Source of the DNA: Gracilariopsis chorda
Lineage: Eukaryota; Rhodophyta; Florideophyceae; Gracilariales; Gracilariaceae
Direction of reading: 5' to 3'
NCBI GenBank assembly: GCA_003194525.1
Contig: NBIV01000127.1
Coordinates: 144,735 to 208,734, forward strand
Length of the DNA: 64,000 nt
Of this stretch, positions 8,572 to 54,334 are shown in pieces. Under the pieces are notes generated by a model. It did no database searches. It was not told where the DNA came from and saw only the letters and a program-made list of their open reading frames with translations. Both the position numbers and the translations under genes were made by a program. The stretch's first letter is position 1. Each line of letters starts with the position of its first letter.

Positions 8572-8576
8572 AACCC

Positions 8577-9516
8577 TGTGGTGCAATACCACACGCGGAA
8601 AGGATCCCGCGACAGCGGCAAAGTCACCCAAGGTGTCCGAGCCTTGCACCCTTGGTGAGGGCGGCTCAGAAGTAGAGCCCTCCGAACGTGACCGACACGA
8701 GTCGGATGTAGGGCCGAACGGTCACTTCTCGCACAGCGCACGGAGGTGTGGGGAGAATCGGATCTAGCGCTCGACGGACAGTCGATCAGTGTGCAACTCG
8801 GTGTTGCCGGTGGTCTGGTGGAGTCCGCTGTATGCTGCGGCGCGGCGAGTGGAACACCCACGAATGAGGGAACGATCCGTACAACGGTATCCTCTAGGAC
8901 AAAGAAATGAGGGGTGGGGAACGAGCCGCACGGCCGGCGCAGACTCGTGACGAGCAATAAATATCCCGAGACGTCGGGGCCAAACCTGATACAGGGCGGA
9001 GTAGAAACAGTCCGTATGACGGTAAACAGAAGAAGAAACAACAAAAGAAAACAGAAAGTAGTCCGTAAGTAACGGTGGTATCACTCCTTGATGTGCAAGG
9101 GGGGGTGACGGAGCCGGATCGGTAGCAGCACTCCCCTAGGTTGGGGTCATAGCCGTATACCAACGGTCAAAGTCAGAGCCCAAACCCTTGTTGAGGTTTT
9201 CTTCCGTAGGGTCGGCGGCGAGTGCCGCCACCTAAGTACGGCCACTGTAGTGTGGATTACTAACTAAAAATAACTAATTACCCCGGGTGCACCGGGCCTG
9301 ACATCCACGTGTGCGTGGTGGCTCACTTGGCATGAGCCGTCCACTCAGGCGGTGTGCACTACACGTGTTACCCACAAGTACCCCCTTCATAGGGGCATCT
9401 CCCATATAATGGGTTAGCCCAATACACCTCATGTATTCCGTATCCCAACGGCTAACCACGCATCTTATATGAAGAGCGATTTGATTCCCTCTACCTCCGA
9501 AGGCTATTGAACCACA
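8577..9516 (-). repeat. Gypsy-A 3' LTR
   Basis: This 940-bp LTR is nearly identical to 19186-20124. It contains many short perfect inverted repeats, for example a 6-bp GGCGGC stem with a 4-nt loop near 9208-9223. Long minus-strand frames exist in both LTR copies, but only because the LTRs are copies of each other. Confidence 0.95.
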
Positions 9517-9528
9517 TCTCCCCCTCCT
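9517..9528 (-). other. Polypurine tract of Gypsy-A
   Basis: Read on the minus strand, AGGAGGGGGAGA lies directly before the 3' LTR, the expected place for the primer of plus-strand DNA synthesis. It sits only 43 bp from the start codon of the antisense ORF. Confidence 0.75.
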
Positions 9529-9571
9529 GAGGTGAAAACACTGGAACAACTTCGGCGACTTCCATCCCAAG

Positions 9572-11464
9572 ATGGCCATAAATAACCGAGAGGACTCGTG
9601 CGATGCAACCGACTCATCGGAGAGCCAACGCGAACTCGCGCTTGTTCCTTACCATCCTTGTCCACGCCATCCAACGACAGCTGCGAGGAGCTCCAACCAA
9701 CCACCAGCCAACCCGTCATCGGGCCCTTCCTCTTCGCGAATCCCGCGGTATCCGAGGCGCACTCCGACTGCTCGGGTATATGTTCCCGTGCAGCCACGGT
9801 TTCGTTTGGCTCCCTTGCCACCTCCGCTCGCGACGGCTCCACCATCGGTGGCTCCGAGTGACGACATCCCCGCAGGCACGGGTCAACCAAACCAATCGTT
9901 CCTCCGCGATTGGAGCGACGCACCCGGCGCGTCGATGTCTGCCGCTTCTAGTGGGTGGCCAACGTATGGCGCCTTGCGCATCCGGACTCCGGCGAGGCAT
10001 TCCGAGTGGTTCGCTCGGGCTCCTTGGTTCGATCCCGAGGCTGTTCGGAACACTCCGCTCATCGATTCGTATGCGGTGGACGAAATCCTACGCGGTAGGC
10101 TACCCGTGAGCGTTGTCCGGTCGTGGGACTGGTTGGCGCACGTTGCGCTCTCCACGCCACTACTGTGGTGGGCGTCAAACGAAACCGAACATCGGGCGAG
10201 AAGTGAGATGGCCCGATTGGGCTATCGCCGATACCATCGGTTGGCAAACGAAGTGCCCGTTCCGTCGAGTTATGGGTTCAACGTCGCGTATTACCGTACT
10301 TACGGAGAAGCCTCCTATGGAGACCGCTTATACGGGGTGATACCAGAGTTGGACCAGTACTCTGGAAGTGTCCAGCCGTACCAGGACCTGGTTCTCTGGA
10401 CACGACCGATTCTCCGGGCTGAGTTCCGGTACCTCCGCAAGAGTTCACGCGGTGAGTTCTTCGAGATTGTCCGCTTTGAGCGAAAGCAACGTTCCCGTCG
10501 GGGGCTCCTGGTACCATACCAGCACATCGAGATCGAACGCCTCTCGTCGAGGGCCTGGAATCGATACGTTCCGCTGCCTACTTTCTGGCCTGCGGTGGAA
10601 GTCCCTCGAGGGTGCAACGTTGAGTTGCCTCCGTTTCTCTCGTACGTGTACTCACGGTTCTTGCACAATCCGCCTCGTGGTCTCTGGAGTTTCCTAGCGA
10701 CGGAGTGGACCGTCCGGGTTGCAGCCTTCCTCCTGTGGGAAGTGTGCGACAAGTACCGGGTCTGGTTCATTCCAGAGTTGCTCCGCCATTCCATTCGCGG
10801 TTTGGATCCCTCCGAGGTACTCGGTTCCGTGCGTAATGCGCGAGAAGCCACCGGGTTGGTGGACGTGATTGACCAGGTCGACTGGGACACTGTACCGGCA
10901 ACTCAAGCGTCGGAAGGGATCCGCCGTCGGTGGGATAAGTCTCCTGGACGGAGTGTCGCTGCGGGCGATTTCGTATACTTCGACCCGTGGCAATGGGAGC
11001 AGATATCCGCTAGCGAAGCGGCTGAGCGGCGCCGTGCGGAACGGATTATCCCCGATGATCATCCAAGGGGCTTCGTGTTCGTCGAGGAAGACGAGGGTGG
11101 CGAGGAATATGAGGAAACCGCTGAAGCGGGGTCACCGATGTCGGATGGCGACGGCGTGGTCGAGGAGATCGACATCACCGACAATGTCGGGGCATCCAGT
11201 GGTGCTGGTGACATTCCCTCGTGTGGGGGCGATGCTCCAGTGGCTCCTCCTTCCCCGGTGGCGGGGGGGGGTGCGAACAACAGTAGCACCAATCCGCAAG
11301 TTGCAGTAGTCCGCCAATTCCTCGCTGGAGTTGGTGTACCCGTACCAGATACGGTAACCACCCTTGCGCAGTTGCAAGCGCTCGCCTCCGAGTACTTTCG
11401 GGGAGGAGGTGGCGGTGGTAACTCTGGTGGGTACTTCTCCGGGATGGGAGGAAATCTTCCCTAA
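9572..11464 (+). CDS. Antisense ORF of Gypsy-A, 630 aa, unknown function
   Basis: This uninterrupted frame runs opposite to gag-pol and occupies the slot where some retroelements carry env. ATG 9572 is in good context (AAGATGG), 56 bp from the LTR. Visible parts: a Pro/Ser/Arg-rich, probably disordered N-terminus (1-110); a central region rich in Trp, Tyr and Arg (about 120-470) with the word VIDQVDWDTVP near 432; an acidic stretch (about 500-545); a conserved-looking AVVRQFLAGVGVPVP segment near 578; and a Gly-rich tail. No signal peptide, membrane segment or known domain was recognised. Gypsy-C has a broken homologue in the same place and orientation, which argues that this is a genuine gene rather than a chance ORF. 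Its transcript would be antisense to the element's genomic RNA. Function is unknown; nothing here identifies it as an envelope protein. Confidence 0.8.
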   Translation: MAINNREDSCDATDSSESQRELALVPYHPCPRHPTTAARSSNQPPANPSSGPSSSRIPRYPRRTPTARVYVPVQPRFRLAPLPPPLATAPPSVAPSDDIPAGTGQPNQSFLRDWSDAPGASMSAASSGWPTYGALRIRTPARHSEWFARAPWFDPEAVRNTPLIDSYAVDEILRGRLPVSVVRSWDWLAHVALSTPLLWWASNETEHRARSEMARLGYRRYHRLANEVPVPSSYGFNVAYYRTYGEASYGDRLYGVIPELDQYSGSVQPYQDLVLWTRPILRAEFRYLRKSSRGEFFEIVRFERKQRSRRGLLVPYQHIEIERLSSRAWNRYVPLPTFWPAVEVPRGCNVELPPFLSYVYSRFLHNPPRGLWSFLATEWTVRVAAFLLWEVCDKYRVWFIPELLRHSIRGLDPSEVLGSVRNAREATGLVDVIDQVDWDTVPATQASEGIRRRWDKSPGRSVAAGDFVYFDPWQWEQISASEAAERRRAERIIPDDHPRGFVFVEEDEGGEEYEETAEAGSPMSDGDGVVEEIDITDNVGASSGAGDIPSCGGDAPVAPPSPVAGGGANNSSTNPQVAVVRQFLAGVGVPVPDTVTTLAQLQALASEYFRGGGGGGNSGGYFSGMGGNLP

Positions 11465-11693
11465 CATGGGGTTTAGACTCGTGTGGTAGTCCCATGATAG
11501 AGTGGGTGCCACCTGTGAATAGGTGGTAAACTTCTCCGGCAGCCGCCGGCTTGGCATGCTTCGTCTTCTCTTCCTTCCTTCTTCTTCTTCACTCCGCCAC
11601 GGGGCGGGCTTTCCGCAATAAGCGGTATGTTTCTCCACAATTAGCGGGTTGCGCTCAATAATGTGGGTGTTACTCCACAGAAGGTCTGGGTGG

Positions 11694-12947
11694 TCAACCC
11701 ACTTGGGCATTGTCCAGCGTAGCTGGTATCGGAGTCCGCGTCCTGCGGTGGTATTGCAAGACCTTCGAGCGTAGAAGGTGCTCGATCGGTTCGGGTGTAT
11801 CTTCGTTTGGAGGGTATCCGTACCAACGGACTCGGTAGACCAATTCCACATTGGAATCGTAACCATGGCTCACGATGGTCTCAATGACAAACTCTTTGTC
11901 GTGTACTTCCCGCTGTATGGGTGGTACGCGGCTTTCCTCGGCGGAGGGCTCCATTCCGCTGTAACTGCGGTCGGCTGTGACTGTCTTCTCCCGCTTCGGC
12001 GGTAGCGCGTCCTGTACTCCAGGTGGTTTCCGTGAGCCAGGCCACAGTGCCTTGGAGGCGGTTGTAGTGCGCTTCCTTGGTGCTACGTCCGGATTCTTCG
12101 GGTCCTCCCCCTCAGAGTGGTTTTCCTGGGGCTTCCAGTCGTCCCGTACTGCGAGTTTCCTCGGCTTCGAGGGGTGTTTCCGTGTTGACGGAGGAGCTTC
12201 CGCGTCGCGCGCGCTCAGCGTGCGGTGCACGGTCACGTGCCGTGGCGGCGGTTGGCCGTTGGGCACGGGCGGTTCACTGTCAAGCTCCACGTCGCCGTGG
12301 GACGGGCCGTTAATTTCGGAATTTCCAATTTCAAACGGCGGCCGTTTTGCGACGGGGCCACGCGTTGCACTTGTGAGTTCTAGCTCCTGTGGAGGCGGTT
12401 CCCCTACGGGGGGTGACACTTGGCGCTCTGTTGGCGCGTCCAGGTGACTTGGTGAATCTCCACTCTCCGTGGCGCGTGTGCGCGCTCCGTTATCACGGCT
12501 CCCGTTTGTCTTCTCGACGGTGTCGTGAGCGACTTCATCAGACAATCCCAGATCTGGGTCAGCAGTCACCGAGCGTTCTCGGGTGTTCTGCCCTTCTCTT
12601 GCCGCGATCGCGGGGGTTCTCTTGAATTCCTTCCGCGTTTGCGGTACGTCTCCCGCCTGTGCGGGCTTCCTGCTAACATCCTTCTACTCTGTTTCCGCCG
12701 TTTGTGGTTGTACTCCCCGCGATGGGGTAACCGGCGAATCCGTTTGCGATGGCGAGAAACTGGAAGGTGTAGCTGTCCCCTCCCTCTCCTTTGCTGGAGC
12801 GACGGGGTCAGAGGTAAGAATCCCCGTGAGCGGGGCGATGCGTGTGTGGATGTGGGACGGTGCCGTGGGTGCCGGGTGAGGTTCCGACGCGGTCGGCAAG
12901 TCAGCAAGGCCACGTTCCGGGTGGGGTAGAACAGTAGGGCGGGTAGT
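11694..12947 (-). pseudogene. C-terminal linker and chromodomain of Gypsy-A pol
   Basis: This is the same minus-strand frame as the end of integrase (12948-13385), after a TAA at 12948-12950 and another stop at 12684-12686. It encodes a long Pro/Ser/charged linker and ends in a chromodomain (about 11745-11900) with EFVIETIVSHG and YRVRWYGYP, the aromatic-rich core typical of chromoviruses. In that lineage the domain guides integration toward marked chromatin. The stops mean it would not be made as part of the pol polyprotein in this copy. It ends 230 bp from the convergent antisense ORF. Confidence 0.75.
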
Positions 12948-13624
12948 TTACTCATCCGCGGTGGGGGTTTCCGTGTCGACGGGTGTGTCCTGTGCCGGAA
13001 GTTCCCGGGTAGCGGCGTTGGCTGGCCTCGGCGCGAGGACGACGCGGTCACGAGAGATACGTTCGTACTGTCCCTTGATATCAAGGACAACCGTCGTGTC
13101 GGTAGTAGAAACAACCCTATATGGGCCCTCCGCGATCGGAGACAGCTTATGACGCTTCTCCTTTTCGGGGTTGTAATATTCCTTGCGGAGAAATACATAA
13201 GAGTTCACCCCGAACTTCGGGGTCCTGTCCACTCGGGCATCGAAATTCCGCTTATAAGCGGCTTGCGCTTTAGACATCGCATTCCGTACAACGTGTAAGA
13301 TCTTGGTTGACCAAGCTTTCCAAGCGTCCCTGTGGTACCGTGGTGACGGAAACTTGTCCAACGTAGCTTGGGGTTCGATTGCCACCGGTGGTGGGGTACG
13401 TGAGAGTACCAGCTCAAATGGAGCAATTCCGGTGACTCGGTGAACCTGCGTATTGTAGGCGTAGGTTACCGCGTCGGTGTAAAGATCCCAATCAGTGGGG
13501 TGTTCTGCAACGAACGTTCTGGGGCGTTCAGCATTGTGCGGTTGAAACGCTCCACCTGCCCGTTAGCTTGCGGGTGGTAGGTGGTGGTAAACCAGTTCTT
13601 GATGTCAAGAATGCGACATACGTC
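12948..13624 (-). pseudogene. Gypsy-A integrase, C-terminal part, frameshifted
   Basis: The integrase frame breaks next to the catalytic region. Just below 13625 the reading continues in another frame with RILDIKNWFTTTYHP and GQVERFNR, which holds the third catalytic acidic residue. It shifts again near 13540 and then runs openly from 13385 to a TAA at 12948 through the C-terminal integrase region (SYVFLRKEYYNPEKEKRHKL). Homologous sequence in Gypsy-B (62489-63106) confirms the alignment. At least two frameshifts and one stop are needed to explain it. Confidence 0.8.
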
Positions 13625-16600
13625 CTAGAAAAACTTCGCTGAGAACTGCGATCCATTATCCGATAACAAATCAATCGGTGGTCCATAGGTGAAAACCCAA
13701 TGGTTAACAAAAGCCTTCGCGACGAAGGTAGCTGAAACCTTTGGCAAGGGGACCGTACGCACAAGTTTAGAGAAGCGGTCAGTAATTACCAGCAAGTAGC
13801 GGTTGGCCCGAGGTGTTCGGACGAATTCGCCCAAGATATCGATTGCGACAAATTCAAGGGGAGCCCTTGCGGGGAATAGGACCAACTTCTTGGAGTGCTT
13901 GCGCAACTTGATGCGGTTCTTCGCACATGCCGAGCAACCTCGGATGGTAGCATATGCCTCAACAGCCATAGCTGGCCAGTAGAAATCCTTGCGTAAGGTG
14001 TAGTACAGCTTTCTCCCGCCTGGGTGAGCGGATAACTTCGCATAATGCGAGAGATTCAGAACTCGAGACTGCAGGGAGTGAGGTACCACGATCTGTGGGC
14101 GATCTCCGACAGTTCGGACGAGGTAGCCTTGGTCATTCGTGACCAAGGGTAAGGTAGCTCCTCCGTTTAGGCGGGCGCGAATCTGCGTGCACAGCGGGTC
14201 TGAGTGCTGTTCCCGGACCACTTCTTCCGGAGTAATCGGTACAAAAGAACCGGGTACGGGCTCCGCAGATGATGCGGCCAGAATGGCATCGAAGATGTCG
14301 TACTCTTCCGGGTCTGAGTCGGTGTCATCCTCTTCGTCTCCCGAAAGGAAACAAGGTATCTCCAGGTCATCCACTGGTTCAGCTTCTGCGGCTGTTGGCA
14401 AGCGGGAAAGTGCGTTGGCCTGAGCGTTCAGGATACCCTTCTTGTACCGGACTTCGAAGTCAAACTCTGATAGCCGGAGTCTCCACCGCATCAAGCGGCC
14501 AGATGGCTCCGAAATGGAGAGGAGCCAACGCAAGGCCGAGTGATCGGTGTGCACAGTGAAATGGTTTCCCATAAGGTATGGGCGAAGGGTTTGTAGGGCC
14601 CAAACTACAGCCAGACATTCCTTCTCGGGCACCGAGTAATTCCTCTCGTGAACGTTGAGGCTCCGTGACCAATAACCGATTGGTAAGCGCTCTCCACTCT
14701 CTGTGGTCTGGAACAATGTGCATCCAATCTGGACGTTGCTTGCGTCCGTGTCCACGGAATACGGTAAACCGAGTGTCGGTAGTGACAGTATCGGTGGCGA
14801 CGTCACCGCATCCACGAGGGATGAAAAAGCCTTTGCTTTAAAGTCATCAAATGGTTCCAGGATGACTGGTTGTCCTTTCCGGAGAAGTGCGTTGAGAGGG
14901 GCTGCAATATCCGCGAAATGCGGGATGAAACGACGGTAGACGTTGCACAAACCGAGAAATGATCGGAGTTCCGTTTGCGTTGTCGGGTGCTTGGCCTGCT
15001 TGAGGGATTTGACTCGCACCTCGTCAACCGACAACCGTCCCGGACGGATAACATGGCCGAGATATTTCACGGTGTCTGTGAGGAACTCGCACTTCTTAAG
15101 TTTGAGGGTTATGCCTCCGTCACGTAGGACTCGCATTACATCCCTGACATGGCCCAGGTGCTCATCCAGGTTACTGGAGAAAATGATGATGTCATCCAGG
15201 AACACCAGGCAAGTCTTCCACTTGAAGCGGGCTAACAAGATGTCCACCGCTCGTTGGAAAGTAGCGGGTGCGTTCGTGAGGCCAAATGGCATCCGTTTGA
15301 AACGGTAGAGGCCCTGATGGCAAACAAAAGCCGTTTTGTCACGGTCTTCCTCCCTGACTGGGACCTGCCAATACCCCCAATTCGCATCAAGGGTTGTGAA
15401 CACTTTCGCACTTCCAAGCGAGTCAATACATTCGTCCATACGCGGGATGGGATACACGTCTTTGACCGTAGCCGCATTGAGTTTGCGGTAATCAATGCAA
15501 AACCGCCAGGACCCATCAGCTTTGGGAGCAAGAACTACCGGCGAAGCCCAAGGGGATTGAGCCGGCTCGATTACGCCTGCGCGTAGCATCTTCTCAACTT
15601 GAGATTTTTCTTCTTCCCGAGCTGTCGGACCTGCCCTGTAAGGGTTTTGTGAGATCGGCCGGGTATCCGGAAGTAAGTCAATCCGATGTTCGGTGATCCC
15701 GATTTTCCCCAGAGAACCGTCCCACATAGACGTGAATTCACGTAACATATCCCGTAACTGATCACGGTGAGACTCTGGGACGTGGCTGAAGTCCAGAGAC
15801 TCGAGCTCCTCAACAGGATCCTTCTTCTCTTTTCCGGGTGATTCCGGTTCTTCTCCCGACGAGGTCGGTGCCTCCGCTTCCGAGTTCTTCGGCGATTCAG
15901 TATTTTCCGAGTCTGTCGGCTTGGTGACAACCGAGTTCGCTTCGGTTTCCTTCTCCTCCCCCTCCTTAGGTTCAGCGATCCCAAGAACTTCGGCAGCCAA
16001 TACCTTCGTAGGTATGATTGCCACTGGATGTGGAAGTACAGAGCCAATGACTTGGTTCTTGACCAACCACTGTTGGGTAGGGCTAAAATTGGCCACTAAC
16101 ACCTTAAAAGGCTTCTCGGGTTCTACGAGTACGATTCCGTTCGCTAAGGCGAGATGCTTTGCCTCATATAACGAGGGTAACGGCTGGACCGTTTGCATGC
16201 CGTGTGTGGCGGATGAAACAGTAACCCAGGTTTGCGATTCCGGAGGAATGCAAATAGACCGAGCCACTCGGAGCTTCGTGGAGGGGCGATCCTTTTCCAA
16301 CGGTTGTTGGGCGACCGGCAGGGGAACCTGCTTTTTGAGCGCCCTCCGGAGCGGCTTCCGAACAATCGGCAGTGTCGTCCCGTCTATGAACTCGACGGTT
16401 TTGCAGCGTGGTCGAATGGCTTCGACGAAGCGATCGCAAAAGTCGGCTCCGAGGATTATCGGTGCAGCCAGTTGTTTGCAGACGACAAACTGCAACTGGG
16501 CAACGCAGCGACCCAGCCTCACAACGAGGTCGATTGTTCCCACGATTGAAAGGGGGTTGTTGTTCGCGTCAGCGATATCCATCGGCGCTGCCGAGCGAAT

Positions 16601-16936
16601 CTGAGCCCGTAACTGCGGGGGTAGAAGAGACTGAACCAAAAAATTGGGACCAGCACCCGTGTCGAGGACGGACAACTGTCGGACCATATATTGATTTGAA
16701 ATACCCAGGTCGGCGTAAACTTTATAGTTTCGTTTCGCCATGACCAGGACTCTTTCCGGAATACGGAGATTTTTCGACCGTACCCACGGGCGACGGAGAA
16801 CAGCTAAGTGTTCCGAGTCCACGTCTGTTGTGGCCATTTTCCGTGTGAGGATTTTGACCTGGGAGCGAGGCTTCGCAGCCTCCAGTGCCTCCGACCTCGA
16901 CGTCGAGGGCGCCTCTCCTGGAGTGGAGACTCCCAT
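13625..16936 (-). CDS. pol: Gypsy-A pol: protease, reverse transcriptase, RNase H, integrase (truncated)
   Basis: This 1,103-aa frame starts at ATG 16936, 2 nt after the gag stop and in the -1 frame relative to gag. Domains in order: aspartic protease with LDTGAGPNF (residues 91-99); reverse transcriptase with WRFCIDYRKLN, TTLDANWGYWQVP, MPFGLTNAPATF and the catalytic FLDD (579-582); RNase H starting YSVDTDAS (726); integrase zinc motif with His964, His971, Cys1001 and Cys1004; first catalytic Asp in AIDILG (1033) and second in SDNG (1093). The frame is lost at 13625, before the third integrase acid. The RNase H end reads ANALSRL where gypsy elements normally have ADALSR. The enzymes copy element RNA into DNA and integrate it. 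The missing integrase end makes this copy defective on its own. Confidence 0.93.
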   Translation of the reverse strand: MGVSTPGEAPSTSRSEALEAAKPRSQVKILTRKMATTDVDSEHLAVLRRPWVRSKNLRIPERVLVMAKRNYKVYADLGISNQYMVRQLSVLDTGAGPNFLVQSLLPPQLRAQIRSAAPMDIADANNNPLSIVGTIDLVVRLGRCVAQLQFVVCKQLAAPIILGADFCDRFVEAIRPRCKTVEFIDGTTLPIVRKPLRRALKKQVPLPVAQQPLEKDRPSTKLRVARSICIPPESQTWVTVSSATHGMQTVQPLPSLYEAKHLALANGIVLVEPEKPFKVLVANFSPTQQWLVKNQVIGSVLPHPVAIIPTKVLAAEVLGIAEPKEGEEKETEANSVVTKPTDSENTESPKNSEAEAPTSSGEEPESPGKEKKDPVEELESLDFSHVPESHRDQLRDMLREFTSMWDGSLGKIGITEHRIDLLPDTRPISQNPYRAGPTAREEEKSQVEKMLRAGVIEPAQSPWASPVVLAPKADGSWRFCIDYRKLNAATVKDVYPIPRMDECIDSLGSAKVFTTLDANWGYWQVPVREEDRDKTAFVCHQGLYRFKRMPFGLTNAPATFQRAVDILLARFKWKTCLVFLDDIIIFSSNLDEHLGHVRDVMRVLRDGGITLKLKKCEFLTDTVKYLGHVIRPGRLSVDEVRVKSLKQAKHPTTQTELRSFLGLCNVYRRFIPHFADIAAPLNALLRKGQPVILEPFDDFKAKAFSSLVDAVTSPPILSLPTLGLPYSVDTDASNVQIGCTLFQTTESGERLPIGYWSRSLNVHERNYSVPEKECLAVVWALQTLRPYLMGNHFTVHTDHSALRWLLSISEPSGRLMRWRLRLSEFDFEVRYKKGILNAQANALSRLPTAAEAEPVDDLEIPCFLSGDEEDDTDSDPEEYDIFDAILAASSAEPVPGSFVPITPEEVVREQHSDPLCTQIRARLNGGATLPLVTNDQGYLVRTVGDRPQIVVPHSLQSRVLNLSHYAKLSAHPGGRKLYYTLRKDFYWPAMAVEAYATIRGCSACAKNRIKLRKHSKKLVLFPARAPLEFVAIDILGEFVRTPRANRYLLVITDRFSKLVRTVPLPKVSATFVAKAFVNHWVFTYGPPIDLLSDNGSQFSAKFF

Positions 16937-16938
16937 AC

Positions 16939-18969
16939 TCAGTTTTTCTGAGCTTCACTGCTACCTTGCGGGTTCGCAGAACCAGCGACAGCTGCAGTGC
17001 TTCCACCTTGAGGAGGTTGGGTTCCCGCGTCCTGGGACTGGAAGTCCGCTATATTGCGGGGGAAGACCGACCTCGCGCGCAAGTAAGCTGAGGCGGGTAC
17101 CCTCTCCTTTTCGGCAGGGGTCAAGGCTTCGTAGTTTACGATCACCTTTGCCATATCCTTCATAGGAAGGTAGCAGTTGGTGGACACATGTCCCGGTTTG
17201 TAACACAGATGGCAGATGATGTGTCGGAGTTGATCCGCTATATGCGGTCGGCGGTCCGATCGTGGAGGATAGGGGTCTTTCCAACCTGGTCGTTGGGTTC
17301 GTGTTCCACTGGAGTACGGCACCGTCAAGGCCGGAACATGATTTCCAGCATACATTGCGGGGTCTACGTCCCCAGTAGAGGGTTCCGTTGTCGACGGTAG
17401 CTCCGTTGTCGGCACTGACGAGTCGCTTTGCAGCAGATGCATGTTGTCGTACATCCCGTGATCCGTTCCTCTCGTCAGAGGCGGTGACGGTACCTGTCTT
17501 GCCTCCAGGGGGAGGACTTTGCCCGACCAGTGCTTCGTTCCCTTACGAGCTCGGAGTGCATCGCCCTCGGCTTGGGCGAACTGCACTAGTTCCAAGTAGG
17601 TGACTCTCCGTCGATCCTTGCGGTGACGGGCAACCAGTGTCCTAATCGTAGGGTCGAGCCCATCCACAAACATGGTACACCTCTCCTGCGCGGAGTACAC
17701 GTTACCACAACGGTGGAATGCCTTGTTCAACCGCGTGGAGTAAGCTGTTTCAGACTCCTCCGACTTCTGTCGGGTATCCCGCAAAGCGATGATAGCGGCT
17801 TGAATAGCATTCCCTGTTGCGTAAGACCTCAGGAGATACTGCACGGCTTCTGGCCAGCAGGTAACTTCTCCTTCGGAGGCTCTCGAGGACCCACGAACCG
17901 AGTTGAACTGGTCCCCCGCCATTCCCCTCAGAAAGTAAGGTAAGGCAATATAGCCCTGAGCCTCGCTCATCCCGAGTATATCGGCTTCCGCAACAAAGCG
18001 GGCAAGGAAATCCAAGATAAGGATTGGGTCCTCTCCTGTGAACTGTTTGCGGAGCGTGAGCTCCAACCGTTTGATGCAATCCTTCACACGGCCAGTTCCT
18101 CGAGGGGTTCTCTCCATGCTAGAGTCCTCCAACCGATAGTATCGGTACGACAGTAGTTTCCGATACAAAAGATTCGTCGGCTTCAACTCCTTGAGTCCAA
18201 GGTGCTTCCGTCCTTTCTCACGGGTACGCACGGCGCCATGCGTGGCTTCCGTGTACTTCGACCGCGATGCGCGGGAACGGTGGTTCGGCTCAGCATCGGA
18301 TGAAGAGGAGGAAGAGCCGTGACTGCGGACGTCGGACTCGGAAGATGACGAAGATGACAAACCTTCTTCCATCTTGACCTTCTTCCGCCTGTGGCGGTCC
18401 GTCGCGCGGTGCGACTTCCGAGATCCCTCGGAAACTGGGGCACCCGGTGGTACTGCATCATGAATGATGGTTTGCTCCAGCGTTTCCAAACGGGCTGCCA
18501 GGCGATTAAGACGTTGGGCCACCTCTTGCAAGAGGGTACCCGAAACCTTTCGGCCTTCCATAACCGTGTTAACGTCGGCTCGTAAAACACGGACGTCGTT
18601 CGAAACGTCCCGAACATCGGCATCATCGAAACGAGTTCAGAGTTTCGTTATATCCTGAATCAGGTTCACCTGCGAGGACTGCAGGATCCTCACCTGTGCC
18701 TCTAATTCACGGAGGGTAAACTCGTCGGACCTCGACGACATGGCTTGAGCCGCTGCCAGAGCGAGATCAGCCGGTCCTTGAGCTTCGGGAACCTCGTTCA
18801 CGGAACGGGGTCCCCTGGAAGCCGGAACTGGGTCATCATTTCCCGGCATGGTCAGGGCGTCCCGCGGCAATGGCGGTAAGCTCTGAGGCAAACCGGTAGA
18901 ACCGGGAGGGCCGGATGAACCGGGCACGGAACCAGTTCTGGAACGTCCTGTATTCGATGGACGGGGCAT
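16939..18969 (-). pseudogene. gag: Gypsy-A gag, full length with one in-frame stop
   Basis: One minus-strand frame runs from ATG 18969 to the TGA at 16939-16941, with a single in-frame TGA at 18637-18639. The downstream ATG at 18561 would give 540 aa. Gag forms the virus-like particle and packages RNA. The N-terminal third is Pro/Ser-rich and then coiled-coil. The capsid core contains LLSYRYYRLEDSS and PILILDFLARFVAEADI. A CCHC zinc knuckle, CHLCYKPGHVSTNC, lies near the C-terminus. Gypsy-B gag (56981-59155) aligns along the whole length, including the region on both sides of the stop, which shows that the stop is a lesion or a readthrough site and not the true start region. The last codons read CAG AAA AAC TGA, a possible slip site into pol. 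Confidence 0.88.
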
Positions 18970-19159
18970 CGCTCACCGATAGGGACCGGACCAAGTAAAT
19001 TCACCAGTTGTAGCTTCCGAAGATTCGGGCAAGTAAATGAATACCGTTAAAGCGGATGCTCCCAACCTGCTGGGAACCAGACAAACCGATTCCTCGTTCG
19101 GACAAGCAGCAACGTGATTTACACCACGTTTCACCACCCGCGACAGCGCAGGCGTAGGA

Positions 19160-19183
19160 CTCCGATTCTAAGTCAGGAGACCA
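19160..19183 (-). other. Primer-binding site of Gypsy-A
   Basis: On the minus strand, 2 nt after the 5' LTR, the sequence starts TGGTCTCCTGACTTAGAATC. The initial TGG fits the CCA end of a tRNA. Gypsy-B (56879) and Gypsy-C (43560) have closely similar sequence in the same place. I could not assign the tRNA. Confidence 0.7.
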
Positions 19184-19185
19184 CT

Positions 19186-20124
19186 TGTGGTGCAATACCA
19201 CACGCGGAAAGGATCCCGCGACAGCGGCAAAGTCACCCAAGGTGTCCGAGCCTTGCTCCCTTGGTGAGGGCGGCTCAGAGGTAGAGCCCTCCGAACGTGA
19301 CCGACACGAGTCGGATGTAGGGCCGAACGGTCACTTCTCGCACAGCGCACGGAGGTGTGGGGAGAATCGGATCTAGCGCTCGACGGACAGTCGATCAGTG
19401 TGCAACTCGGTGTTGCCGGTGGTCTGGTGGAGTCCGCTGTATGCTGCGGCGCGGCGAGTGGAACACCCACGAATGAGGGAACGATCCGTACAACGGTATC
19501 CTCTAGGACAAAGAAATGAGGGGTGGGGAACGAGCCGCACGGCCGGCGCAGACTCGTGACGAGCAATAAATACCCCGAGACGTCGGGGCCAAACCTGATA
19601 CAGGGCGGAGTAGAAACAGTCCGTATGACGGTAAACAGAAGAAGAAACAACAAAAGAAAACAGAAAGTAGTCCGTAAGTAACGGTGGTATCACTCCTTGA
19701 TGTGCAAGGGGGGTGACGGAGCCGGATCGGTAGCAGCACTCCCCTAGGTTGGGGTCGTAGCCGTATACCAACGGTCAAAGTCAGAGCCCAAACCCTTGTT
19801 GAGGTTTTCTTCCGTAGGGTCGGCGGCGAGTGCCGCCACCTAAGTACGGCCACTGTAGTGTGGATTACTAACTAAAAATAACTAATTACTCCGGGTGCAC
19901 CGGGCCTGACATCCACGTGTGCGTGGTGGCTCACTTGGCATGAGCCGTCCACTCAGGCGGTGTGCACTACACGTGTTACCCACAAGTACCCCCTTCATAG
20001 GGGCATCTCCCATATAATGGGTTAGCCCAATACACCTCATGTATTCCGTATCCCAACAGCTAACCACGCATCTTATATGAAGAGCGATTTGATTCCCTCT
20101 ACCTCCGGAGGCTATTGCACCACA
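19186..20124 (-). repeat. Gypsy-A 5' LTR
   Basis: This 939-bp LTR has TG...CA ends and is followed on the plus strand by the target duplication AACCC at 20125-20129. It is near-identical to 8577-9516. Confidence 0.95.
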
Positions 20125-20896
20125 AACCCAGGCAATTATCCAGTGCACCAGTTTCCTCATGAACCGCTCTGGAATACATCTCAGTGCGCTGATTCATGTC
20201 TTCCGGTGAGATGTTTCCCATGATTAGGTGGCTACGAGCGTTTAAAAACGCTTCTATGCCCTCCCAGAACAACTCGGATAGTTGCGAATAGTTCTTGGAA
20301 AATAGAAGCCCTCGGTCAAACCATCTTGCAGAAGATGATAATTGACGTAACACAACGCATGTCACCAGCAAAGGATTACAAGAATATTTGTTTCTGGACG
20401 TCACTCTTGACGTGGTATGCCATCCAAGATCTATTAACATACGAGAGATGTCGCTGTTCCTAAACCTGAACAGCACAAGGCATGTAACATCAGTAACGCT
20501 TCCGAACTTGAAAGAAAAGGTGAAAGTTGAAAAATGTCGCTTGAGTATTGCGTAGCGCCTTTTTTCTTCTGTTTCAGATACATACTGAGCGGCAATCGCA
20601 AAAAAAACGTGGGAAGAAGTGGAAAGCGTAACTGGAATTGTCTGTCTGCGACAAGCAATGGTAGGTAGTATAATTGCCCACTTTACCTGTCGACCATTGC
20701 TTTGGGAGTGGGAATAATCGGAATGCCTACGGAGAGGCACCTTTGGGAAAGGGATAGTATTTTCAGGATAAGGGAGACCTTGATTGGTAATACTCACAAC
20801 TCGAACTGATTTCTTACTGCGTAAAGATTCGTTGATGATTTCATCATATTTGCAGGTTCCGCCTTTTCTGATTTTCTGGCTTACAAATATCGTCAT
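20125..20896 (-). pseudogene. Harbinger-1 transposase, N-terminal part
   Basis: The minus-strand frame is open from 20917 (a GTG inside the terminal repeat) through an ATG at 20894-20896 to the Gypsy-A insertion. The best family match starts near 20460 with FRFRNSDISRMLIDLG, followed by RQLSSSARWFDRGLLF and SQLSELFWEGIEAF, the helical pre-catalytic region typical of Harbinger transposases. It ends in ALDNCLG, which continues as FIDGT at 8571 once Gypsy-A and one AACCC copy are removed. The first 140 residues have no recognisable family pattern, and the true start may be further in. Confidence 0.8.
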
Positions 20897-27660: not shown

Positions 27661-27674
27661 GGTTATGGGCCCAG
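27661..27674 (+). other. Copia primer-binding site, half initiator-tRNA type
   Basis: Directly after the LTR, GGTTATGGGCCCAG is complementary to the anticodon stem-loop region of eukaryotic initiator tRNA-Met (its CAT anticodon reads as ATG here). Drosophila copia is known to prime from such an internal, cleaved half of initiator tRNA. The absence of TGG at the start fits this mode. Confidence 0.75.
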
Positions 27675-27844
27675 AGACGTCTGAAATCTCTTCAAGACTT
27701 TCAAGATTCTTAAGACGACAGGACAGATCGGAAGACGACTACTATATACAAAGCCTTCTTCAAAACTGTTACACTCTTCAACAAGAAAAATCCTCCCTCA
27801 GCCTCTCAGTCGCTGAAACATCTTCTACACAACATCTCTCCATC

Positions 27845-31001: not shown

Positions 31002-31077
31002 GGAGCGCTCTATATAAAGCACCCAGGAACACTCGTCACCGGCGTCGCTGTTCCTGGGGTATCGGTTCGTCGTCACA
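30884..31077 (+). repeat. Copia 3' LTR (194 bp)
   Basis: This begins TGTGGTGACGCGCAAAG and ends GTCACA, followed by AATTC. It carries TGGTGACGCGC twice, 76 bp apart. The 5' LTR has lost the interval between them. Confidence 0.9.
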
Positions 31078-43046: not shown

Positions 43047-43557
43047 TGTAGTAAAATAGCCCTAAGGTCAGACGGCTGGCAAGATGGAGTGCCGAAGAGG
43101 TGGACAAAGGCCCAGAGCACGATTGGCTCGTGTCCATATTAGCCACGTGGGTCGGAGATAATTGTGACCTGAGGTGTGACCTCAGCTGGACCTGGCACTG
43201 CAGCACAGTTCACAGGAGAATAGTGTAGCTTTTAATTTAATTTATAAGTAGTAGCTACCGGTGGTCTAGAGCGCCTCGCCGACTATATTAGTTAGCTCGA
43301 GCTCTGCGGAAGCCCCATCTTCTTCCTCTAGTGGCCTCCAAGTTTTCAAAAGACACAAGCTTCCCAGTCATCATTACGAGTGCGCTCGACCTGTAGGGAC
43401 CTCTTATAACGCCCGCGCATAGCGCGTGCACGTCAGAAGGTGCCCAAGACACAACTAGACCCCAGTGGACTGCCACCCTAGTGGCTGGTTCTCTGCCGCC
43501 GCTACCTCTAGTAGGTACTACTTCCCCAATTGGCCTCTAGAATAGTATTCTACTACA
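43047..43557 (+). repeat. Gypsy-C 5' LTR
   Basis: 511 bp, with terminal inverted TGTAGTA/TACTACA. The primer-binding site starts TGGTATCCCGACC at 43560, 2 nt after the LTR. Confidence 0.9.
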
Positions 43558-45868: not shown

Positions 45869-46098
45869 AGGCGTGCAGTTCCTCTAACGTCAAATGCCTC
45901 AGTACACCGGACCGGAAGCCAAAAGAGGAGAAGAAGAAATTGGAACCAAAGCATGGAAATTATCTGGATTCTAGTCAGCCTTACGCGGTAGACCAGTGGG
46001 GAGACCTTGAGGACGCAGTATGTGTCCTACGGAAGGAGAATTAGAAAGTACACGGGACTCTTATACTGCAAACGAACACCACGCGGGCTTTCAATGCC

Positions 46099-47738
46099 GT
46101 GTTGAACACGGGTGCAGGCCCAAACCTGGTACATAGTAAGGTGTTATCGTTGGTCTGGGAGAGGATGCTGCAGGAAAGGAAATCGCCAAGGGTGATGGAC
46201 GCGTCACGCCAACCAATGGATATCCGCGGGGTCGTCCCGCTTTACATCCAGTTGGGTCACCTGAAGGTTAGGACTTGGGTTATTGTATGTCCGGACCTTG
46301 GAGCAGAGGGTATCTTTGGGGCCAGTTTCATCGATAGATATGTAAAAGCTATCTGTCCTGGCCAAAAGAAAGTTTCATTCCATCGAGGACCTCCACTGGC
46401 CATTATTGAAGCACGCCCCGGACACGGAGCCACCCCCTCAGGACCGAGGTTTCCCAAGCGGACGGTATCCAATAATGTACGCTTGGCCATGGCGGTATTA
46501 ATACCGCCGATGTCCCAAGTGGCGGCCGCTGCAGTGCGTGAATCCTCAGGTCTTGTGTCGGTGCAGAATCACCCCAAGCTGGTCACGAATCATTTATCTT
46601 TGATGGCCAATGGAGTGATGAATGTTGTCCTCAATAGGCCATTCGCTGTTACCATGAGCAATTTCCGCGATAAACCCACCAGGCTTCCCAAAGGTATGGT
46701 AGTTGGCACTAACGTACCTGCCCCAGTGCCGATCATGGAGGCTCAGCTCGGAAACCCGCCATCGAGCAGCGAACCAGTGGCCAATTTGGAGAACGAAGTT
46801 AACCTCTGTGAGGGTTCCGAGCTCTACAGGAAACAATTCATTGACCTCCTGAAGGACTTTGCCGGAATGTGGAGTGGCAAGCTGGGAAAGATAGATGCGA
46901 CGAAACACCGCATCGACCTCAAGGATGGAGCCACAACGCAGTACCAGCACCCTTATAGGACAGGCCTGAAAGGAAGAGAAATAGTAGCAAAAGAGATGGG
47001 GAAGATGTACACCGCCGAAGTAATTGAACGTGCCCCTCCCAATGAGGCCAAATGGACAAGCCCCTTTGTCCTTGTGGCCAAAAAAGATGGGACCGTATGG
47101 TTTTGCATTGATTACCGTAAGCTCAATGCTTTGACCAAACGGGACACCTATCCTATTCAGAGGATGGATGACTTTCTTGATTCCCTGGACGATGCGCAAG
47201 TTCTTACCACGTTGGACGCAAATTGCGGCTACTGGCAAGTACCAATGGACGATAGTGCTAAAGCGTTGACTACCTTCACGACCCACGAGGGGCTGTTCCG
47301 ATTCACTCGGATGCCCTTCGGACTGATGAACGCGCCAGCCACCTTCCAACGGGCAATGGATATCATACTATCCAGGGTCAAATGAAAGTATGCTCTGGTC
47401 TACTTGGATGACATAATCGTCTTTTCGAGGTTCATTGGTGATCACTTCACTTATGTAAAGGCTGTCCTAAGGTTATTCCAGTAGGCTGGTGTCACCCTAA
47501 AGCTGAGTAAATGATTCTTCTTCCAGCCCTCTGTGGACTAACTTGGCCATGTGGCCTTACTCAGTATGCTCCAGGTAGCGAAAACTACGACGAAGGCCAT
47601 TAGGGATGCGAAACTCCCGAGGACCCACACGGAACTGCGATCCTTTTTAGGTTTATGCAATGTGTACCGAAGGGGTGTCCCTGGGTTCGCGAAGATTGCG
47701 TCGCCACTGAATGAAATGCGGGACCCCTTCGGAATATG
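46099..47738 (+). pseudogene. pol: Gypsy-C pol: protease and reverse transcriptase, broken
   Basis: The protease motif reads LNTGAGPNL, with Asn in place of the catalytic Asp. RT shows WFCIDYRKLNALTKRDTYP, TTLDANCGYWQVP, MPFGLMNAPATF and, after a TGA at 47383-47385, YLDD. Further stops interrupt the thumb, and the connection is found at 47551-47738 (RSFLGLCNVYRRGVP). Clearly a pseudogene. Confidence 0.9.
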
Positions 47739-47788
47739 ATGACCTGGCGTACGAGCAGTTCGAAGCCTATTAGAGCGTCAAGGACCAT

Positions 47789-48406
47789 TTGGTAAACCCC
47801 CCAATCTTGGCCTTCCCCAGGGCAAACAAACCGTACGTCCTCGATACAGATGCCTCGTCAACCCAGGTTGGATGCGCACTGCTCCAAGGGCAAGATTCTC
47901 CGAAGAACTATCGACCAATTGGATACTGGAGCCGTTCGTTAACGAAGGCTGAAAGGGAGTACAGCACGTCGGAACGGGAATACTTGGCCATTGTCTGGTC
48001 AGTTTTACACCTGCGGCCTTACCTGGAGGGTACTCGGTTTGCCATTAGGACAGAACACAATGCCCTTCGATGGCTTCTGAATATAACCGATGCGTCATCC
48101 CGTTTAGCTCGCTGGAGACTCCGGTTGGCCGAATTCGAGTACGAGGCTAGCTATAGGCCGGGCGTAAAGCACCAGGCCGCTGATGCCTTATCTCGTATCC
48201 TGACTGATGGAACGGATCAAACCCCATTAGACGATGAGATTCCCACCTTATGGGAAGGTCCACAGGATGCAAAGGTTGATCCAGAACTTAGTGACCTTGT
48301 AGGAGAAGTTACGACTAACCAAGGGAATGGAGAAGAAACTAAGGTCATTTTATGCACTATTGACTTGGAGGACCCATCCTTGGAAGTCCACGTGGCCGAG
48401 ACGTAA
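47789..48406 (+). pseudogene. Gypsy-C RNase H
   Basis: RNase H domain: YVLDTDASSTQVGCALLQ, YSTSEREYLAIVWSV, and the terminal QAADALSRI with the conserved Asp retained. It is in a different frame from RT. Confidence 0.88.
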
Positions 48407-48535
48407 ATAAAAAACCTCATCCCAATATTACTCGACGAATTCCTCACGGCCCAGAAGGGTGATCAGCAGTGTGTCCAGTGGGCTAATGCAGTCGGGATCC
48501 CTGGGTTCCTGTTCGATTATAACCGTCACGAAATA

Positions 48536-49210
48536 TTGTGCCGCCGCTCTCCACTTGATAGGGCAGTACAGCACGTTGTTCCAAGGGCCATTCAGGCAGG
48601 AATCTTATATCTGGCTCATTACCCTTGGCTGGCTGGCCACCCAGGCAGGACGAGAATGTATCAGATCTCAAGGAAATTCTTCTATTGGCCACTCATGGCC
48701 AACGATATAATGGAGACCGCACGGAGATGCGCAGCATGCGCTAGGATTCGGGGAACACGAGCGCTGCTCCAGTGGGAGCTGAAATTCTTCCCTGTGGCAG
48801 GACCTTTGGAATTTATTGCTATGGACATCCTAATGCCTTTCCCTAAATCGACCCATGGGAACTGCTTCATCTTGATTATTACCGACAGGTTTTCCAAGAT
48901 GAGGCGTGCTATTCCCCTACGGTCCACCACGGCAACTGATATTGCTATGGCGTTTCTTGTCCATTGGATATACCTCTACGGCCTGCCTTTATATCTGTTG
49001 ACCGACTATGGCCCACAATTTCTCTCCAAGTTCTATGGACATGTGTGCTCGGCTTTGGGTCTACAAATTCTCCTGACCACCGCCTACCACGCGCAGACTA
49101 ATGAACAAGCGGAGCGCTTTAATAGGACGCTGGCCTCTAGGATGAGCCACTATGTGGCTGAGCACCAGTGCGACTGGGACGATTACGTCCAACCCATCGT
49201 CTATGACTAA
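48536..49210 (+). pseudogene. Gypsy-C integrase
   Basis: Zinc motif (HYPWLAGHPG... CAACARIRG), then catalytic AMDILMPFP, LLTDYGPQF (Asp kept, usual Asn replaced by Tyr) and NEQAERFNRT (Glu). It ends at a stop just after the core. The C-terminal part continues in another frame at 49283. Confidence 0.9.
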
Positions 49211-50074: not shown

Positions 50075-50987
50075 GCTACACGGAGCACGATCTCCGAAAC
50101 GGTCGTCTCCATGACCTGGCCACTCCGCTCGCTCCGTCTTCCTCCACACGCACGCATGTAGAACACTGACAACTTCAACTTCGGACCCATGGAACTGCCC
50201 TTAGAAAATCATACCCGAAGGAACTGGTAATTGCAAATCGCATCTTGAGAGCCAAGGGGTATCTATACCAAAGGTAAACCATGGGGAACCGGCCGTTTGC
50301 CAGGGACACCCTGCGGACGCCCTAGCTACGAGCACATCGCAGCGTTATCGTACCATGGGTTGCACGGAGCATGCTCTTAAGGAGGAGGGGGGGAATGATG
50401 GCCACAGAGACCATTTTGAGGACCGACCAATGGGACTACGCGCGTGCCACGGTGCGCCCTTGAACCGCCTCCCATGACACTGCCTTCATCATCTCCCTCA
50501 GGCCGAACTATGGCCGAACGAGAACCGCAGCGACTTCAGACCCCCGTCGTTGAACTTCAAAAATAGTCCCAAGGGGTCTGAAGGACGCAAATGATGGCAA
50601 GAGGTATAAGGGTTGACCTCACGAAACACATCAAATGGGACTAGAACCAGGACTCAGGGCCTGAAGGACGACGATCAGCGCTAACTAGGGCCCATGTGGG
50701 CAGTATGGAAGACTTAAGGCTTTACTCAGTACGCCAGCGACCAATTAGGCCGAAGGACCAGCGGAAGAACCGACTTGCGCGCGCTTGCGACCTGGGCTAT
50801 GAGCCGACGAGTGAGCCGGAAAATTTTCGGTGTCCGTCAGGTTCAGACCGAATCGGTTATCCGAGTCGGCTGCCACGGAAGTTGACAGAACTTTAGCGTT
50901 CTCCTCCAGAACGGTCGCCAATGCCTCTTTGACCTCTTGGTTCCTCCCCACCAGGGTCAAGTACCGTGACGCCCTACGGACCCACGA

Positions 50988-53566
50988 CTAGGCCGCACGC
51001 AACGCCTCGACGAGCTCAATGGGCGCGGTTACGCCTGCCGAACAGCAAACCCCGACGAGCTCCTCAAAGGCTCGAGCTACGGCCATAAATATCGCAGGTG
51101 GCGGAGATGGCACTGGCGCACTGACCCCCAAAGAAAGGAGCGAACTAGTAGCGGTGTCGGTTGAACCAAGAGACGACTCAGGAAGCTCGACCATGTGGAG
51201 CTTTGAAGGTGGCTTCTAATAGGAAGCAGGGACAGGCGCTGTTGGCGGGCCTTCGGAAGGAGGCTGCAGGCAAGAGTTATCAAACCCAATGGCCTGCAGA
51301 TAATAGTCCGGGATGGTCCGACGCAGTACATCGACTGGATTATCCAATAAAGGCTGCGCCTCATAGGCCTTGCCATCATCGCAGCCCAAAGGATGCTCCG
51401 GAATCGTCCAAAACTCGTCTGCGTCGTAGTCGTACCACAAGTATCCAGGGGCCTTTGCCCAATCGACCTGCAGGACATAATCTAAAAGACTCTCTATGTG
51501 CTCCGCGCTATACAAGGCCCCGCGGACTATGTTCGAGGTGGGGAGGCAGGGGCACCAATCGGCCCTCAGGACTCGGAATGATTTCCTCATTCCAAATACG
51601 ATGGTCGGGCTCACGGGCATTCGCATGCAAGCCAGTACTGGCAGTATCCAAGAAGGCCATGAGGCAGAGTACTGCTCATTCCACAACGAAGACCTGCCAG
51701 GTAAGTCAAGGGAGTCGCTGACGGAAATTGTCCTGGAATTGGGTGGTGTAATAAGCCACAATGGACGAAGAAGGGACCATGAGGAGATTAGACACATGCC
51801 AAATGGACGCCTCAGGGCTGGCAGCGACCGGTGCCATGGGAAGATAGACGTTGGATTTACGGGACAGCGGCATGTTGTGGAAATCGACCTCGTGCCAGCA
51901 GATGAAGTACTTCAAATTCGTCCGGATACGGCCGTCGGGTTCGATCATGTCATTCCAAAAAGACCTTTTGGCAATCCAGTACAGCCAATCATAAAGCGGT
52001 CTGTAGCAAATCAGCCCCAGAAGTTTTTGGTCGCTGGGTGGGAACGACGACCAACGGTCACCGTGTAAGAGATTTAGGTCCGCGAGGAGCCGGTTAACCC
52101 TCCGTTAGTAATCTTCTTTTTCGTCACATTGGACGTACGGCATGTACGGTCGGACCAAGGCACGGATACGCGCCACTGCTCAGAAATCCGCGGGGAGATG
52201 TAACCAACGGTTGTACCAAGAGGTCTCTCGCGCGTTCTTCTTCTCACGAACGTAATTCGGGATTGCCGCAAATCTACGGGCGTACAAATATTGGTCCTGG
52301 TAGCGAATGAATTCCTCGGCCGAACTGGGCAGATAGGTACTTCTTATGGCCGTCGGAGTGCGTCCCCGGGTGTGGTCATTCCTCTCCCAAGGATGGGCGT
52401 ACGCGCTGCTGGTGGGGACTAAAGCTGAAGTGCAATGCCCTCAGAGAGGGATTCTTGGTACTCGGTTGATTTCCCGAATGTTTCGGTAATGTAGTCGTTG
52501 CATGAACTACGACCACTAATAGTGGATTTGAAACGTGGGACACGGAAGAGTCAATTGGCGGTTGGCCACAGTAGTGGACATGAACCACCAAAGCGGAGTA
52601 ATTTAGTTAATTCTATTTATTATTTTTACACCCATTTCTGGGATGGTTAGTACTTAGTGCGCCTGCGGATTGCCGTCGCAGCAGTAAAACTTCCCCAAGA
52701 AGGGACCCCAACCTGAGGAATTCGCTGTAGACCTCACCGCCTTCGCGTGTTCTCTACTCCTCTTTGGAGGGAAGCACCTTCGCCTACGGGAAGTCCAACC
52801 CCCTTGCCTATCTAAAGGACCTGAGTATTCGGACTGTTATTCCAGCCTTCTGGGTGTTCGCCTTGTATAAGGTTTATTTCGCGGCACTGCCGTTAGTCTT
52901 CGTCACGACACTCGCGACTCAGCTCCCCCTTATTTTTCCCTTTACAGGGTGGCTTTCCCGCTACCCATCGCTCGTGTTCGCGCGTGCCACTAACGTGGAA
53001 ACCTCACCTCTCTAGAGGACGATCACTCTCATACACCGCTCCTGCGGATACCCGATTCTTGCCTCAACCTCCCTGCGCAAGTCGCGACGGGTGGCCTCGG
53101 CCTTACAATCCGACATAGTCGTGCTACTCCTGGGAGGGCTCCACCCAACTGGGCTCACCTCTAATGAGGAAGGATCCCGAACGTCTTTCGGTGCGCTCCC
53201 GCTTCCGAGCATTGCACTACAAAAGCAATTGGACTGGATTCCACAGTGATTGCCGACCGCCGGATGCGTTCACTGTCATCGCACAGCGGGCGAGGGCCCC
53301 AAGGGGTTAAGTAGGAGTCGGTTCCAAAGGATATGCCATTCGCAGCAATTGCCAAGCGAAATGACCAAGAGTCGTAATGGGAGGACTCCAGTTACACTAT
53401 AACGAGGAGACCATCGGACTCTGCCCGCAATCGCCGTGGGGCTCGAATGGACGACCGAAATGAAGCAGAGCGAATGACGTGGTTGCGGGCACGCAGTAGC
53501 TACAACCCGGCGGTAGACGTGGGCGCCCAATGGACCCACATCTGATGCACTCATCCCCGTGGCCAC
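50988..53566 (-). pseudogene. Antisense ORF of Gypsy-C, broken homologue of the Gypsy-A antisense ORF
   Basis: This reads on the minus strand between the chromodomain and the 3' LTR, exactly as in Gypsy-A. The N-terminal piece (53566-53222) is interrupted by a nested solo LTR. LTR plus duplication is 801 bp, so the frame continues unchanged from 52425 to about 51706 with stops near 52190 and 52101, then shifts frame at 51797-51216 and again at 51194-50988. Shared words with the Gypsy-A ORF in the same order: PLSRKSNVYLPM versus LSSRAWNRYVPL (51873); YVLQVDWAKAP versus VIDQVDWDTVP (51479), each followed by an aromatic Y.D segment; and AVARAFEELVG versus AVVRQFLAGVG near the C-terminus (51083). 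No known domain. Confidence 0.75.
52426..53221 (+). mobile_element. Solo LTR, Gypsy-B family (diverged)
   Basis: 796 bp, TGAAGTGCAATGCC...GCATTGCACTACA, flanked by a perfect AAAGC duplication (52421-52425 and 53222-53226). It is recognisably the same family as 31785-32616 and 56051-56875 but shorter and more diverged. It sits inside the Gypsy-C antisense ORF. Confidence 0.92.
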
Positions 53567-53804: not shown

Positions 53805-54334
53805 TGTAGTAGAATAGTCTTAAGGTCAGACGGCTGGCAAGATGGAGTGCCAAAGAGGTGGACGAAGGACCAGAGCACCACTGGCTCGTGTCCATATTAG
53901 CCACGTGGGTCGGAGATAATTGTGACCTGAGGTGTGACCTCCGCTGGACCTGGCACTGCAGCACAGTGCACGGTAGAATAATGTATTATTTTATTTATTA
54001 TTTTAGTAGTACTTATTGGTAGTCTAGAGTGCCTCGCCGACTATATTAGTTGGCTGGAGAGCTGCTGGCAACTGAGGAGTAAAGGGAAGCACCACCTCCG
54101 TCCTCTAGTCGCCTCCAAGCTTCCAGCGGACACAGGCTTCCAAGTCATCGTTACGAGTGCGCCCGACTTGTATGGACCTCAGATAACGCCCGCGCCTTGC
54201 GCCTGCAAGTCAGAAGGTGCCCAAAACACAACTAGACCCCAGTGGACTCTCACCCTAGTGGCTGGTACTCTGCTGCCGCTACCCCTAGTAGGTACTACTT
54301 CCCCACTTGGCCTCTGGACTAGTATTCTACTACA
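53805..54334 (+). repeat. Gypsy-C 3' LTR
   Basis: 530 bp, homologous to 43047-43557 with many substitutions and small indels. Followed by TGCTC. Confidence 0.9.

Follow-up and report, generated by a model that had tools for sequence, protein, structure and literature searches.

A long antisense gene under purifying selection in chromodomain gypsy elements of a red alga

Is a long open reading frame on the strand opposite gag-pol of a Ty3/gypsy element a gene, and if so, what does its product do? The question is raised by gypsy-A, an element in the window analysed here, i.e. the whole stretch of 64,000 nucleotides from the red alga Gracilariopsis chorda. We conclude that the frame is almost certainly a real, selected gene, ancestral to a large clade of this alga's chromodomain gypsy elements. 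The frame (Table 1) lies between the chromodomain ORF, which ends at 11694, and the 3′ LTR, and it is oriented tail-to-tail with the gag-pol–chromodomain series. The original prediction of an uninterrupted 630-aa ORF in this slot was confirmed by an ATG, 0 internal stops and the location of the LTRs. The ATG is placed 55 nt inward of the 3′ LTR edge, just past the polypurine tract. In size, position and strand, the frame corresponds to the aORF-3R/eORF-3′R type (at least 250 codons, pol–3′ LTR interval, opposite strand). The three sense-strand frames of 9572–11464 contain 7–11 stops each over the codons compared. In first-order Markov simulations of a 1.9-kb segment (n = 300), the longest open stretch had a mean of 179 and a maximum of 401 codons, compared with 630 in the real sequence. 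Alignments show that the A-type protein is composed of a proline/serine-rich N-terminus, a conserved core (residues ~135–505) and an acidic and Gly-rich tail.

Regarding the element itself, gypsy-A is flanked by a 5-bp duplication, AACCC, at 8572–8576 and 20125–20129. Its domains follow the order of chromoviruses (RT, RNase H and integrase, then a chromodomain), with the chromodomain in a separate frame. The gag-position ORF gave only two weak, unrelated matches to Pfam. The sense pol region (11694–16936) is split over several frames despite the young element and the intact antisense gene, by either decay or programmed shifts.

Table 1. Features of gypsy-A and gypsy-C in the window
Feature	Position	Strand	Description
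Antisense gene, A-type	9572..11464	+	630 codons, ATG, no internal stop, intact
gypsy-A, whole element	8577-20124	-	Ty3/gypsy chromovirus, young, flanked by target-site duplication
gypsy-A 3′ LTR	8577..9516	-	940 nt
gypsy-A polypurine tract	9517..9527	-	sense strand GGAGGGGGAGA; between LTR edge and antisense ATG; read directly
gypsy-A chromodomain sense ORF	11694..12569	-	domain ~11745-11891, PF00385 E 3.3e-7
gypsy-A sense ORF between integrase core and chromodomain ORF	12566..13198	-	no Pfam match
gypsy-A sense pol	13625..16936	-	RT, RNase H, integrase zinc-binding and core (Pfam)
gypsy-A gag-position ORF	16939..18561	-	540 aa; assigned by position and similarity to the same slot in the other two gypsies
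gypsy-A 5′ LTR	19186..20124	-	99.0% identical to 3′ LTR
gypsy-C antisense homologue, piece 1	51544..52470	-	58% to L053 residues 19-327
gypsy-C antisense homologue, piece 2	50748..51545	-	49% to L053 residues 337-609, other frame
Nested LTR-like insertion in N-terminal part of gypsy-C antisense gene	52426..53225		85.8% identical to a stretch of L051
gypsy-C 5′ LTR, aligned part	43047..43557	+	84.7% identical to 53805-54334
gypsy-C 3′ LTR, aligned part	53805..54334	+	
gypsy-C pol	46006..49036	+	39-40% to gypsy-A pol, in two frames
gypsy-C chromodomain-ORF match	49850-49999	+	

At least nine element lineages of the G. chorda genome carry homologues of the antisense gene in this slot. The window protein gave at least 73 matches (from the best 70 of 1,553 candidates, with several rows for some places), and those listed range from its own copy through copies at 93–96% down to families at 39–40%. 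Searches with other members of the family gave at least 152 matches for the gypsy-C fragment (best 150 of 307 candidates), at least 160 for the related protein P0010 (best 80 of 1,456), at least 68 for P0005 (best 66 of 785) and at least 75 for the D-type P0003 (best 75 of 1,661); these lists, including that of the window protein, overlap in part and were not summed. For P0003, 62 of the 75 listed matches have no in-frame stop. Open frames of 594–774 codons are found in lineages B, D, E, F, C, G and H, and long open antisense frames were read in A, B, D, E-like, C, E, F, G (774 codons stop to stop) and H (708). We compared the orientation at 70 loci (L001–L070), all of which were chosen through the antisense protein and not through pol, some being overlapping pieces of one place. 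The antisense match lies opposite the best gag-pol/chromodomain match at 57 loci, tail-to-tail in every one of them, and on the same strand at a single decayed locus (L023); at the remaining 12, the examined piece contains no sense match. Matches to the chromodomain ORF also occur in loci of other lineages carrying the antisense gene. The LTRs were located for gypsy-A and gypsy-C only.

The second copy in the window belongs to gypsy-C. The decayed homologue predicted there at 50988–53566 is real, as is the nested insertion; its extent is corrected to the two pieces in Table 1, with a frame change near 51545 relative to the open-frame relative L053. The flanks of the insertion are contiguous in other copies of the gypsy-C family. 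Piece 1 runs into the insertion for its last 45 nt (52426–52470), where the match was probably extended by chance. An HMM built from six A-type sequences gave no significant match to gypsy-C when searched directly; the link between the A and C types needs intermediates or profiles. First, a single comparison of the A and C profiles by hhalign gave a probability of 96.0 and an E-value of 4.6e-9 over 208 columns. Second, the A profile recognized C-like ORFs with E-values of 1.4e-11 (L069), 5e-10 and 1.5e-9 (L057 and L059) and ~5e-7 (L052 and L055), up to 0.004, and it missed L054 (0.3) and L070 (not listed at 0.001); these searches used small in-house sets, which make the E-values optimistic. 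Finally, tblastn with the E-like protein of L027 reached the G locus at 9e-8 and the C51 locus at 1.4e-7, and the window protein reached G at 6e-5, again with the optimism of small in-house sets. The hhalign value and the BLAST value obtained via intermediates remove the possibility, raised with the original prediction, that the two ORFs share no significant similarity.

To compare the inheritance of the antisense gene with that of pol, we used one copy with an open antisense frame from each of nine lineages. Pairwise identity in pol is correlated with that in the antisense core (Spearman 0.87 over 36 pairs, with 0 of 20,000 Mantel permutations as high), for a pol coverage that is uneven, with 673 columns in A, 157 in G and 83 common to E and G. 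The maximum-likelihood trees share the order A + B, D, E, F, then C51, C53, G and H. Supports along this common path are 99, 86, 77 and 100 for pol and 100, 92, 68 and 100 for the antisense core, and the trees differ only in the arrangement of G and H, which is weakly supported (42 and 64). The lowest pol identity is 42%, between F and H. Between A and the group of C51, C53, G and H, pol is 46–55% identical and the antisense core 19–21%.

Selection on the antisense gene was analyzed with NG86 dN/dS ratios. Recent A copies (dS up to 0.07) show ratios of 0.47–0.98, and very close pairs, with few changes, range from 0.2 to 1.3. The ratio of A to L008 and L018 (dS 0.14 and 0.20) is 0.53 and 0.59, and that of A to the older L010, L019, L023, L026 and L011 (dS 1.1–1.7), copies which are themselves decayed, is 0.20–0.22. 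C51 and L055 give 0.145 over 516 codons of open frame (dS 0.56, dN 0.08, unsaturated) and 0.27 over 700 codons when the broken tail is included, and C51 and L066 give 0.21. C53 shows 0.62–0.88 with close copies and 0.19 with L064 (dS 0.78). The unsaturated deeper pairs thus fall at 0.145–0.27; between-lineage ratios of 0.08–0.36 were not relied on, with many pairs saturated or nearly so in dS. This gradient, ~0.2 in deep pairs and mostly 0.5–1 in recent ones, is the pattern of a gene on which selection acts in moving elements and ceases once a copy has inserted, and a ratio near 1 across lineages, which would have contradicted the original prediction, is not what we find. The codon positions of C51 and L055 point the same way: the third-position share of changes is 0.62, compared with 0.33 in neutral simulation (maximum 0.43 of 500), and 0 stops are observed where 6.1 are expected (minimum 1). 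These results show that the antisense gene is co-inherited with pol and that purifying selection acts on it in active elements. The claim that its conservation implies selection is borne out by the A–C homology, by the low dN/dS with the third-position excess and by a tree like that of pol.

Codon bias can yield long ORFs opposite genes, and the frame might on that account be a chance ORF, or its conservation might be imposed by a sense-strand feature. However, most of the ORF lies beyond the sense ORFs with known domains, and no open sense-strand frame accounts for the conservation. Stops in all sense frames of the seven pairs compared, a third-position excess that belongs to the antisense frame and homologues across nine lineages refute this explanation, to which we give practically no credence. 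A related view is that the antisense RNA matters, through dsRNA or interference, and the ORF is incidental; antisense transcripts can indeed restrain retrotransposons (Ty1 work cited in PMC4007536 and discussed in PMC7264820). Codon-level purifying selection, with the frame kept down to ~20% protein identity, indicates instead that the protein is needed, which makes an RNA-only role very improbable.

The antisense gene diverges faster than pol. Between A and B, RT shows a ratio of 0.04 with a dN of 0.078, compared with a dN of 0.42 for the antisense gene, so that RT is the more constrained in this comparison; the other RT pairs are saturated in dS. Such divergence suits a regulator and equally an arms-race protein. 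The strongest rival to a regulator, given this rate, is an anti-silencing factor that would protect its own family from silencing by the host through small RNAs or chromatin. VANC of the Arabidopsis VANDAL transposons, which counters host silencing, follows the same logic. The many places with open frames and the putative separate transcription unit are also in line with it, but the constraint is still strong (ratio ~0.2) and the protein has no known host target or motif, and we consider this role unlikely.

No Pfam, NCBIfam or PDB-sequence match was found for the antisense proteins tested, as expected from the original prediction of a protein without a recognizable domain. The 17 alignment members gave four weak Pfam matches only, with a best E-value of 0.019 in two members, none convincing. 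In particular, neither PF04195 nor a bZIP domain was found by Pfam searches of the single antisense proteins and of the 17 alignment members. AlphaFold2 models were weak (pLDDT 44.2 and 58.1, pTM 0.32 and 0.66) and gave no fold match, which says little either way. Among ~5.8 billion proteins, at least nine relatives were found (from the best ~8,000 candidates per search), including two predicted proteins of G. chorda, P0002 (BWQ96_10156) and P0008 (BWQ96_08351); the nine listed name no fungal protein. The closest genome matches of P0003, P0005 and P0010 are 59, 44 and 46% identical at most among the matches listed, and these three proteins are therefore probably from other species. By eye, P0007 appears identical in sequence to locus L025. 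A single capture event, in which the ancestor of the chromovirus clade took up a host gene or a gene of another mobile element, is an origin compatible with any function. It would agree with the opposite orientation and with a single homologous family whose tree follows pol. Nevertheless, no source gene is recognized among the nine relatives listed, where the only Pfam domains are those of DnaA in the probably chimeric P0006, and such a capture seems improbable to us. P0006 (ENA source, contig of 6,041 bases) joins the N-terminal part of a bacterial DnaA to a C-type antisense protein, and its tail repeats the end of P0005; it is probably a chimeric contig. As a side observation, the NCBI annotation of G. 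chorda carries at least two versions of the antisense gene as ordinary hypothetical proteins (L060/P0008 and L016/P0002).

The function that we favour, as a regulator, can be outlined as follows. The antisense mRNA would start at a putative promoter in the 3′ LTR and run towards the integrase gene. We infer this promoter because in A, B, E and F the coding frame begins only a short way in from the LTR; in B, E and F it is closely preceded by a C-run, the complement of the polypurine tract. In five of the nine lineages (D, L028; C51, L051; C53, L053; G, L069; H, L070), no such run is visible within 260 nt upstream of the frame or the ATG used; thus, LTR proximity is visible in four of nine and is not general. 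The product would probably have a disordered N-terminus, a conserved core and a variable tail. It may act in trans, most likely in the nucleus, and may tune sense expression or integration of its own element, as HBZ does in HTLV-1 and as proposed for GENE23 in maize Grande. No NLS or DNA-binding motif is conserved across the lineages, NLS-like runs being scattered, and the middle part of the protein has a pI of 8.5–9.7 in A, D, E and F, 6.7 in B and 5.2–5.8 in C51, C53, G and H. The whole chain, from a selected ancestral gene through a 3′ LTR antisense mRNA to a trans-acting, likely nuclear regulator like HBZ or GENE23, is a tentative reading that we hold at somewhat below an even chance. The same slot is occupied by env in retroviruses, and together with the conserved core and a putative C-terminal coiled coil seen by eye in C-type proteins, this could suggest that the protein serves the particle as a structural or trafficking accessory, active in nuclear import or packaging or as an envelope-like part. 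A gene on the strand opposite gag-pol, however, is not translatable from genomic RNA, and an envelope-like part is at odds with the lack of a clear transmembrane segment (maximum 19-residue hydropathy 0.93–1.67, only H borderline); we regard a particle accessory as quite unlikely.

Antisense ORFs between pol and the 3′ LTR are a known kind in plants and one fungal family, as described in PMC7264820 and PMC11963269. The novelty originally claimed for the red-algal gene needs narrowing in this respect; no paper on this red-algal protein was found among the openly licensed papers listed. The nearest likeness is to the TRP28 (Transposase_28, PF04195) ORFs of plant Retand, Grande gene23 and RIRE2, described as protein genes that run antisense to gag-pol in the interval from pol to the 3′ LTR and occur in the majority of elements of the lineage (PMC11963269, PMC7264820). 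In these accounts, the Grande antisense gene is transcribed, that of Retand weakly, and GENE23 is nuclear (PMC7264820). However, the Retand elements are described there as non-chromoviruses (Tat) of flowering plants with a TRP28 domain, whereas the red-algal elements are chromoviruses without a PF04195 match, and their one homologous protein, with open frames of 594–774 codons, follows pol down to 42–46% pol identity. Plant eORFs are likewise extra ORFs at the 3′ side, some of them reversed (Neumann et al. 2019, PMC6317226). Unlike the single red-algal family co-diverging with pol, they are reported to be very diverse (314 groups in Ty3/gypsy), and their acquisition is regarded as independent (PMC6317226). 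Outside plants, the antisense gene brtn of Boty from Botrytis (Zhao et al. 2011, cited in PMC8365987 and PMC7264820) is, by its description, a similar extra antisense gene of a Ty3/gypsy element. HBZ of HTLV-1 is also an antisense gene at the 3′ end, with the HTLV promoter in the 3′ LTR (PMC7264820, PMC11963269), to be compared with the gypsy-A ATG near its LTR; the red-algal protein differs in having no bZIP or other Pfam domain and shows no sequence relationship to HBZ.

These comparisons bear on what the gene means. Neumann et al. questioned the function of the extra, often antisense, plant ORFs because of their heterogeneity (PMC6317226). In the red alga, many open-frame copies and one protein co-diverging with pol over nine lineages make the question of function answerable, add a protein family without recognized relatives, and show that antisense genes occur beyond plant elements and Boty. 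It is nearly an even chance, in our judgement, that red-algal chromoviruses are ambisense by ancestry: the antisense gene, encoding a new protein family, would have been essential to the whole clade since before pol fell below 50% identity, would probably occur in further algal species as well, and would act as a regulator or anti-silencer specific to its family. If so, this would be the clearest case of an antisense retrotransposon protein shown to be needed by evolution alone.

Other elements are present in the window. A third gypsy (56981–64000, + strand), with a pol 71% identical to that of gypsy-A, is cut by the contig end. It contains a minus-strand 211-aa ORF (63259–63894) where the tail of an antisense gene would be, and this ORF has no match to Pfam or to the A-type HMM. 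Lastly, a GAG-pre-integrase and integrase core fragment, copia-like by inference, lies at 27665–29956, and it is followed by an ORF without a Pfam match and then by a DDE_Tnp_4 transposase fragment at 31119–31787, the whole spanning 27665–31787.
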